Virus record (IMG/VR): IMGVR_UViG_3300046809_000224
Location: 1 to 64,000 of that record
Source: a virus
DNA length: 64,000 bases
Direction: 5' to 3' (one strand)
Of this stretch, positions 13,589 through 29,545 are shown in pieces. Every line of letters starts with the position of its first letter. Position 1 is the first letter of the stretch. The position numbers and the translations under genes are program-made. The notes beneath the pieces are model-generated. The model saw only the letters and a list, made by a program, of their open reading frames with translations. It was not told where the DNA came from and searched no databases.

Positions 13589-14218
13589 TTACTTCCTACC
13601 CCATCCCAAAGCAGCCGGCCGTCCATATCCGGCGAACTTGATCTTAAGCCAATCCCTCGATCGGCCCCGCTGATACGTTGAGTCCATCCGCTTGGCGACC
13701 ATGCCTTCCAAACCTAGCTCCTGGACGTGCTCAAAGACGAGCTTTCCTTCGTCCTCAATCCCGCTCGCATAGATCAGCGTACCGGTATTATCAAATGATT
13801 TTCGAAGATGTAGCTTGCGTTCAGTGAGTGGCAGAGCGCGTATGTCGGCGCCGTCGATGGATAAAGCGTCGAACACGTACAGCCTGGCCGGATCAGACTT
13901 CGCCGCGGCGCGGACATTCTTCGGCGTTTTCGTGACGGCACGCTGGCGAAGCCTGTCAAAGTCTGATCGCCCGGTGTCATCGTCGACGGTCAGCTCGGCA
14001 TCCCATACGAAGTCTCCCGGTACACTTTCGACCGCCCGCACGACCTCTGGAAACGAACCGTTGAACAGATTGCCATTGCGACTCCAAAGCTTCACGTCGT
14101 CGCTCGCTTTCACGATCAGGCATCGAAACCCGTCGTACTTGAGCTCGAACAGCCAGTCAGGATCGGAGAATGGTCGCGGGTGGAGCGTAGCCAGCATCAA
14201 ATTCGACGCGTCAATCAC
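13589..14218 (-). CDS. ATP-dependent DNA ligase, adenylation-domain type
   Basis: 209 residues from a GTG that overlaps the preceding stop; an ATG 21 bases further on is an alternative. Nucleotidyltransferase motifs are in order: motif I LKYDGFR with the adenylated Lys near residue 27, WDAEL (motif III region), LEGMVAKR (motif IV) and DWLKIK (motif V). It resembles the LigD-type catalytic domain and lacks a separate OB-fold, so it may be minimal. It is the last gene of a leftward operon behind a LexA-type site. Confidence 0.85.
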   Translation of the reverse strand: MIDASNLMLATLHPRPFSDPDWLFELKYDGFRCLIVKASDDVKLWSRNGNLFNGSFPEVVRAVESVPGDFVWDAELTVDDDTGRSDFDRLRQRAVTKTPKNVRAAAKSDPARLYVFDALSIDGADIRALPLTERKLHLRKSFDNTGTLIYASGIEDEGKLVFEHVQELGLEGMVAKRMDSTYQRGRSRDWLKIKFAGYGRPAALGWGRK

Positions 14219-14399
14219 GGTAGCGAGACGTCCAAGCCCACGCAAGCGCCAGCTTCGCCCATGCGTCGTCTTTTGGGCAGCCCGTCACGTCACACAGGTG
14301 CTCGAAGTCCTCGGCAAGAGTATGTCCGTGCTCGTTGCGCTTGGTCGGATCAGGCAGCACGACTTCTAGAATCGCTTCAGGGTTGCGGTACTCGAACAT
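14211..14399 (-). CDS. Small protein upstream of the ligase
   Basis: 62 residues from the ATG at 14399, chosen for its very strong GGAGGTG site. It contains YRNPEAILEVVLPD, an acidic helix with Cys (LAEDFEHLCDVTGC) and a Trp-rich end (ALAWAWTSRYRD). The stop overlaps the ligase GTG by 8 bases, indicating translational coupling. No family is recognised. Confidence 0.65.
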   Translation of the reverse strand: MFEYRNPEAILEVVLPDPTKRNEHGHTLAEDFEHLCDVTGCPKDDAWAKLALAWAWTSRYRD

Positions 14400-14623: not shown

Positions 14624-14643
14624 TACTGTGTTTCCGTACAGTA
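14624..14643 (-). promoter_or_regulatory. LexA-type SOS box and ligase operon promoter
   Basis: A 20-bp site TACTGT-N8-ACAGTA with perfect six-base arms matches the proteobacterial LexA operator (CTGT-N8-ACAG). It lies 8 bp upstream of the first ATG and overlaps a TATACT -10-like element at its upstream edge. The operon would be repressed by host LexA and induced on DNA damage. Confidence 0.75.
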
Positions 14644-14677: not shown

Positions 14678-14697
14678 TTAGCAGAAAAAGACACACC
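14678..14697 (+). repeat. Integrase arm-type repeat, left copy
   Basis: TTAGCAGAAAAAGACACACC, repeated with one mismatch at 14907-14926 in the same orientation. The two copies bracket the tRNA fragment, as arm sites of tyrosine integrases do. Confidence 0.65.
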
Positions 14698-14746
14698 AAC
14701 GATTTCAGGTATCTCTATCGAAAACCTTGAAACCCTTACTGGTGGC

Positions 14747-14799
14747 TGGTGCCGGGGACCGGACTTGAACCGGCAAGCCGTTAGGCGGCGGATTTTAAG
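14747..14799 (-). other. attP: attP core: 3' fragment of tRNA-Leu(TAA)
   Basis: Read leftward, this is the last 53 bases of a tRNA-Leu: anticodon loop with TTAAAA, variable arm, TTCAAGTC T-loop, acceptor CCCCGGC, discriminator A and CCA. Homology stops at the anticodon loop: the 5' anticodon stem does not pair, so the tRNA is incomplete. This is the identity block used when a phage integrates at a tRNA 3' end and restores the gene. The integrase gene is adjacent. Confidence 0.8.
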
Positions 14800-14906
14800 T
14801 ATTGCTTCACTGTTCGTTTACACAGGCTTTAGGCTTGCCTGTCACGGTAAATCAAGGGTTTGCGGCTGTGCAAATGCTGTATATGTGAACAGTGGGTAGC
14901 GATGTT

Positions 14907-14926
14907 TTAGCAGAAAAAGGCACACC
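14907..14926 (+). repeat. Integrase arm-type repeat, right copy
   Basis: TTAGCAGAAAAAGGCACACC, the second copy of the direct repeat flanking the attachment core, just downstream of the integrase stop. Confidence 0.65.
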
Positions 14927-26316: not shown

Positions 26317-26551
26317 GCCGGTCTTTCCCGGCTGTCAGCGTGTTAAGAGGCTCGCAACTCTCGGTCTTTCCCGGCTGGCAGAGGCTTCGGGCCGCTCAGA
26401 TGAGCCACGATACTTCGCCTCGGTTGCCGTCTCTCCGGCTGTCGCACCACTCCTTGTGCCCACTACAGGCCCGGCAGGTGTCGCGTTGAGTTCGTTGCGG
26501 CGTCTCACCGCTGCGGCTTATAGCTGCTAAGAGCGGCCGTCGCTTCGATAT
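26317..26551. repeat. Intergenic region with repeated CGGTCTTTCCCGGCTG
   Basis: The 16-base unit occurs at 26319-26334 and 26362-26377 (43-base spacing); a degenerate third copy is near 26428. No frame in the region has a credible start and protein character. It interrupts an otherwise tightly packed leftward operon, so it is probably regulatory or a remnant of an inserted element. Confidence 0.5.
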
Positions 26552-28686: not shown

Positions 28687-29445
28687 CTAGTTGCCGCCGG
28701 CCAGGCCTGAGCCTGAGCGGTAGATCACCTCGCCGGCAATCTGCAGGCTCTCCAGCTGGTCTGCATGAATCACCTTGTCCGGGAACTCCGGATTGTATGA
28801 GTGCAGCCTGAGCGCCCCTTCCGGCTCTTTGAATATCTGCTTGACCAAGGGCTCGTCCTCAAAGACAACTGCGTAGATCAGACCGTCTTTCACCCGGGTC
28901 TTGCTCGAGCAGATCATCATCATGTCGCGGTTGAACAGGTATGGCTCCATGCTGCGGCCGTGTACCTGGGCGAGCTTGCAATCTTGCGGTCGTACTCCCA
29001 AGGCGCGGAAAAAACCAAGGTCAAACGGAAGCGCCTTCTTCTGCCTTACTTCCCACTGAATCACGCCAGTCCCCGCCGAAAAACGATAGTCAAACCGGTC
29101 AATCCAGACCCGATCCTCATCGATCTCAAGATCCTCCGGCGCCTCCCAGGTGACTACATTACCTTGGTCGTCGGGAAGCAAACGCTTAATCAAGGCATCT
29201 GGTTGACTTGTTTTTGCCACATCGTTTTGCTCTGAACTGTGCTGTACGTCTAGCCACCCTTCAGGCCGCGCAAAGGCTGACTCGATCCGCCTGGCCAGCT
29301 TATCGCCAATGTTGCGAGTGGGCGCAGGCCCCATAACCTGGTTGACCTGCTGCGTGCTGCTGTCGATCCTGCGGGCGAACTCCGCCGGCCCGTCCGTCAT
29401 CAACGAACGTGCGTTCTCCAGCCTGATTTCCTTGACTGTTTTCAT
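28687..29445 (-). CDS. cI: CI-type repressor with S24 peptidase domain
   Basis: About 252 residues; starts at 29472 or 29481 would lengthen it. The N-terminal 65 residues are an XRE helix-turn-helix (EFARRIDSSTQQVNQVMG). The C-terminal S24/LexA-like domain has VHGRSMEPYLFNRD with the Ser nucleophile and DEPLVKQIFK with the Lys. It maintains lysogeny and should self-cleave under RecA activation. It is divergent from the Cro-like gene across paired operators. Confidence 0.9.
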   Translation of the reverse strand: MKTVKEIRLENARSLMTDGPAEFARRIDSSTQQVNQVMGPAPTRNIGDKLARRIESAFARPEGWLDVQHSSEQNDVAKTSQPDALIKRLLPDDQGNVVTWEAPEDLEIDEDRVWIDRFDYRFSAGTGVIQWEVRQKKALPFDLGFFRALGVRPQDCKLAQVHGRSMEPYLFNRDMMMICSSKTRVKDGLIYAVVFEDEPLVKQIFKEPEGALRLHSYNPEFPDKVIHADQLESLQIAGEVIYRSGSGLAGGN

Positions 29446-29473
29446 GGGCCGAATGATGGGCGCATCAATCATT

Positions 29474-29545
29474 TTGATCAACGTGCAAAAAGATTTGCTT
29501 TAGCACATCAAACCACTTGATGTGTATATCGTTTTGATCTATATT
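29474..29545. promoter_or_regulatory. Operator region and rightward promoter (PR-like)
   Basis: Rightward TTGATG, 17 bases, TATATT (29517-29545). Its -35 is one arm of a perfect inverted repeat CACATCAA-ACCAC-TTGATGTG (29504-29524). Further half-sites: TTGATCAA (29474-29481), TTTTGATCTA (29532-29541) and TTTGATTTA (29556-29564). This is the expected OR arrangement: repressor bound at the main site would occlude PR. Confidence 0.8.

Follow-up and report, generated by a model that had tools for sequence, protein, structure and literature searches.

The window, a 64,000-nucleotide stretch of DNA belonging to a 67,433-base virus record, contains at 14678–14926 what is very probably (about 0.93 for site identity, host target and crossover position taken jointly, as judged from sequence comparisons) the complete, intact and unintegrated attachment site (attP) of a temperate phage with a tyrosine integrase. 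An attP of the tRNA type is a kind already known; what is new is that conserved boxes of the LexA type, CTGT-N8-ACAG, occupy fixed positions within it. Within the open-access literature, as searched and judged by title and abstract, no paper describing LexA on attachment sites or recombination complexes was found. The site provides a firm prediction of host and integration site for an uncultured phage, its integrase family spans four tRNA targets, and its architecture poses the testable question of whether a master DNA-damage repressor could control a recombination site by sitting on the site itself, and not via genes.

The attachment site and its host target

A previous sequence-only reading had described this region as a complete attP, with a tRNA-Leu(TAA) fragment between 20-base direct repeats differing at one position and with one repeat next to the integrase stop. 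Both elements held on closer analysis, the two repeats being identical at 19 of 20 positions (Table 1) and the stop codon of the PF00589 integrase lying 2 bp past the end of the nearer one, with the integrase gene (int) convergent to attP. Pairs of 20-mers with at least 19/20 identity within 300 bp occur at one place besides attP in the 64-kb window and at none in 20 shuffles; that other pair, at 26319, is a short direct repeat whose 20-mers, identical at 19/20 positions, lie 43 bp apart. ARAGORN does not report any complete tRNA for the window, in line with the block being a fragment, and a scan of the attP region against Rfam gave no matches, half a tRNA falling under the threshold. Since attP is intact, the sequenced molecule was not joined to host DNA at this site. 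The arms are presumably bound by the N-terminal domain of the integrase.

Table 1. Features of the attP region and related genes in the window (strand as assigned; a point marks features given no strand)
Feature	Position	Strand	Description
Box C	14626–14641	.	CTGTGTTTCCGTACAG; outside the arms; overlaps a predicted minus-strand promoter, upstream of an ORF of ~70 aa (start ~14616)
P' arm-type repeat (far from int)	14678–14697	+	TTAGCAGAAAAAGACACACC; motif GCAGAAAAANNCACACC conserved in relatives at the end with the rebuilt tRNA
attP core	14747–14799	-	3' 53 bases of tRNA-Leu(TAA), from anticodon loop to CCA; identical in complete tRNA-Leu(TAA) of four Paraburkholderia genomes
Anticodon loop, 7 nt	14793–14799	-	Predicted strand-exchange (overlap) region; left edge of phage/host identity; attL/attR of G008 and G002
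Phage-side core half-site	14800–14809	+	Separates the loop from box B by 10 bp; spacing from the alignment of relatives and Bordetella phage IFTN2; putative role
Box B	14810–14825	.	CTGTTCGTTTACACAG; CTGT-N8-ACAG, LexA-box motif
Box A	14877–14892	.	CTGTATATGTGAACAG; LexA-box motif
P arm-type repeat (near int)	14907–14926	+	TTAGCAGAAAAAGGCACACC
Tyrosine integrase, 330 aa	14929–15921	-	Pfam PF00589, E = 3.4e-17; phrog_1
Excisionase-like HTH protein, 102 aa	15786–16094	-	phrog_66, E = 4.9e-5; HTH_17 below its cut-off; conservation
cI-like S24 repressor	28687–29481		

The 144 genomes of the genus Paraburkholderia were then compared with the core. The 53-mer is found exactly in four of them (G030, G095, G106 and G126), and in 53 when up to three mismatches are allowed, and in all four exact cases ARAGORN identifies a complete tRNA-Leu(TAA), in agreement with the tRNA-Leu target that had been proposed. 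Identity between phage and host covers 54–56 bp, starting one base 5' of the anticodon loop, and in the window it extends up to 14800 (54 bp). The nearby arm is absent in three of these four genomes; in G126 an arm of the family lies 104 bp downstream of the loop, and its site must for this reason be regarded as occupied or as a remnant, with a 3' half supplied by a phage. From sequence matching, the host of the phage is predicted to be Paraburkholderia or a close relative. A search by DNA for the nearest named phages found none.

Integrated relatives, crossover and orientation

Relatives of the integrase, 61–95% identical to it, were gathered from viral contigs and Burkholderiaceae genomes. 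Free or unresolved attPs of these relatives display the arm motif on both sides of the core, and nine complete prophages, each on a single contig with an arm at each end, encode integrases 61–78% identical to that of the window. They are found at a tRNA annotated as Met/CAT (G002, 55.8 kb, in Paraburkholderia franconis CNPSo 3157), at tRNA-Leu(TAA) (G003, about 46 kb; G015, 45.3 kb), at selC (SeC; G004, 44.8 kb; G008, 57.0 kb; G025, 45.4 kb; G128, 48.4 kb) and at tRNA-Lys (G226, 42.9 kb; G257, 53.9 kb). Four tRNA targets are thus used across the integrase family: Leu(TAA), selC, the one annotated Met(CAT) and Lys. Slightly off-motif arms are those of G003 at its tRNA end and one arm each in G226 and G257. 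The tRNA that ARAGORN calls Met(CAT) (at loci L038, L045 and L104) is 88 nt long and has a long variable arm, features unusual for a CAT anticodon.

In every one of the nine prophages, a complete tRNA stands beside the arm lacking boxes, and a truncated tRNA beside the arm that carries them. One arm with a complete tRNA and the other with a truncated one are the attL and attR products that the sequence-only reading predicted, and its assignment of the arm sites is likewise borne out at the sequence level, as the motif that flanks the core on both sides in attP is split between the two prophage ends when the relatives are integrated. Comparison of these ends shows that on insertion the host tRNA is rebuilt with the 3' half supplied by the phage, the other end keeping the truncated tRNA.

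Two prophages locate the exchange more closely. In G008, attL reads CCGGG-TTTGAAG-TCC and attR CCGGA-TTTGAAG-GCC, with a mismatch immediately on either side of the 7-nt loop, and in G002 the sequence common to attL and attR around the loop is reduced to GGCGGATTATGAGTCC, both flanks being different. Strand exchange therefore takes place within the anticodon loop or directly next to it in these relatives, where it had been anticipated, and by analogy the crossover in the window is predicted at 14793–14799. A separate observation concerns G025, in which near-identical boxed arms are located at 243783 (L283) and 250057 (L289) of contig C2, 6.3 kb apart, the inner one being joined to sequence other than tRNA, as if derived from secondary-site insertion or duplication.

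The mutual orientation of arms, boxes and tRNA is invariant across relatives. Nonetheless, the orientation of this module relative to int varies, int abutting the boxed arm in some members (including the window and L006) and the unboxed arm in others (L012, L019 and L023). On an integrase tree with 19 scored rows, four orientation changes are needed, at least two of them forced by well-supported branches, so that at least two inversions of the attP module relative to int, and probably about four, have occurred. In prophages of the window type, int appears at the end with the truncated tRNA, and in those of the other type beside the rebuilt tRNA.

Conserved boxes in the P arm

Boxes A and B, together with the third box at 14626 and the variable orientation of the module, go beyond what the earlier reading had noticed. 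Four perfect CTGT-N8-ACAG palindromes are present in the window against 0.5 expected, and three of these cluster at attP in a span of 270 bp (14626, 14810 and 14877). Boxes A and B both lie between the core and the right arm (14907–14926), with box-to-arm distances of 33 and 100 bp, and the layout of the P arm is common to 26 family members, with 10 bp separating the loop from box B, ~51 bp the two boxes from each other, and ~17 bp box A from the arm.

All 26 relatives, which cover the four tRNA targets, show at most one half-site mismatch per box. Box A is perfect in 24 and has one mismatch in two, while the corresponding numbers for box B are 15 and 11, many selC phages having a half-site mismatch (mostly TCAG) in the latter. 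Median pairwise identity reaches 100% for the half-sites of box A and 87.5% for those of box B, versus 44.6% for the rest of the arm, and 16 lineages less than 70% identical to each other are alike in this conservation. Of 22 opposite, unboxed arms, 21 have no perfect box in the 230 bp that follow; the remaining one is that of the window, with box C. An IHF-like sequence between the boxes of the window, ATCAANNNNTTR, is not kept in the family according to the alignment of relatives. A scan of viral sequences for paired boxes yielded 52 stretches, and those that could be recognised are members of the same integrase family.

Candidate proteins at the boxes and comparison with known systems

In 10 of 10 host genomes examined, CTGT-N8-ACAG is present twice in the lexA promoter and once in the recA promoter, a host lexA promoter box reading CTGTATGTATGAACAG. 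The motif is the SOS box of the beta/gamma-proteobacterial type, and LexA of E. coli binds this core too. LexA is favoured as the protein bound because both half-sites and their spacing equal this host box, and binding of boxes A and B by host LexA is predicted with somewhat better than even confidence. With a LexA matrix built from the host lexA and recA boxes, median scores are 13.7 and 13.3 for the boxes versus 5.8 for random spacers; set against other CTGT-N8-ACAG occurrences, an impure control that includes contigs chosen for paired boxes, box A is weakly favoured (p = 0.01) and box B not at all (p = 0.15). Considering that, in spacers and flanks, box A resembles LexA sites weakly and box B does not, and that an excisionase-like gene is conserved, a serious rival is that the boxes, within the same attP, are sites of the recombination directionality factor of the phage itself, namely the excisionase-like HTH protein. 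Nearly every family member for which sufficient sequence is available has the gene of this protein upstream of int, and in the window the gene overlaps the int start (15921) by ~135 bp in another frame, an overlap kept in nearly all relatives. In lambda, excisionase sites lie between core and arm, as the boxes do here; their fixed spacing to both elements also fits an accessory protein coded by the phage, and a tRNA-Lys outgroup (integrases ~37% identical) is devoid of boxes, L047 giving no above-chance match to the excisionase. However, the motif reproduces the half-sites and spacing of the box in host lexA and recA promoters, an unlikely accident; excisionase sites are usually direct repeats, unlike these symmetric, dimer-type ones, and a third copy, box C, is placed at a promoter outside attP. 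Binding by the excisionase-like protein is, on balance, rather unlikely.

The same identity with the host LexA box, and the overlap of box C with the predicted promoter of a small ORF, would also suit an SOS-regulated promoter inside attP, reading toward int or flanking genes, with the boxes as its ordinary LexA operators. Promoter prediction, positive at box C, detects nothing promoter-like at either box A or box B, int is convergent to attP, and inversion of the module makes the boxes face different genes while their distances to arm and core stay constant, which renders this explanation quite improbable. Still less credit is given to the boxes being operators of the cI-like repressor, even though the phage encodes one of the S24 type, as its divergent control region is devoid of CTGT-N8-ACAG even at one mismatch; the motif being absent there, this candidate was rejected. 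That region instead shows two ATCAA-N5-TTGAT palindromes adjoining the repressor gene (29464–29478 and 29507–29521), which are probable phage repressor operators. Least credible of all is that the tRNA-like block with its repeats arose by chance or is a degenerate relic instead of a working attP, since all the elements (int, the excisionase-like gene, core, arms and boxes) are intact and correspond to those of nine integrated relatives, and the same attP recurs on a contig whose integrase is identical.

If LexA is indeed the protein at boxes A and B, it would act there as part of the recombination complex or as a competitor to it. We tentatively propose, at a little under even odds, that host LexA might serve the recombination complex of this family both as a structural part and as a regulator, placed at two fixed boxes by the crossover core, so that its RecA-driven cleavage might license excision with no transcriptional step. 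It is to a similar degree conceivable that intact LexA is required for integration or maintenance, and that its destruction in the SOS response favours excision. An undamaged host would then be needed for integration and stable lysogeny, and the boxes would couple DNA damage to excision by a second, direct route, beside the cI-like S24 repressor.

In phage lambda the tyrosine integrase has both core-type and arm-type sites, and there are accessory sites for IHF, Xis and Fis. Its attP and intasome share with the window the 7-nt overlap, arm repeats flanking the core and sites, or predicted sites, of accessory proteins between core and P arm. In contrast to lambda, the core of the window is a tRNA anticodon loop, each side has one recognisable arm repeat, the two being in direct orientation, conserved LexA-box palindromes stand where lambda has accessory sites, and relatives differ in how the attP module is oriented relative to int. 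Integrases of prophages and islands that target tRNA genes at the anticodon-loop sublocation, for instance in selC, similarly have an attP holding the 3' part of the tRNA and rebuild the gene, the fixed LexA-box architecture being what distinguishes the present family. Integron integrase promoters are controlled by LexA. LexA-regulated antirepressors of prophages have also been described (PMC3121763). These mobile elements likewise couple the SOS response to mobility via host LexA, but there LexA acts on gene transcription, whereas here the boxes are inside a recombination site and lack a predicted promoter. For the Burkholderia selC phage PhiE067, an attP of 19 bp is reported (PMC7266877).

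No record in the phage collection has an integrase at least 60% identical to that of the window, the best rows being Bordetella avium phages (38–41%). One of them, vB_BaM-IFTN2 (OM293951; integrase 38% identical), has a core resembling tRNA-Cys and, at the place of box B, a perfect CTGT-N8-ACAG whose distance from the anticodon loop is exactly 10 bp; it differs in having a single box and other arms. Neither phage IFTN8 nor the tRNA-Lys outgroup has a box at this place, and a relative of IFTN2 (L302) has one with one mismatch.

Box C also has its own surroundings. The minus-strand ORF of ~70 aa behind it was not assigned to a family, and further downstream on the same strand a protein with an ATP-dependent DNA ligase domain is encoded (13589–14245); box C, this ORF and the ligase-domain gene possibly form an SOS-controlled repair operon. 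Prophage G003 has a box resembling box C beyond its P' arm.
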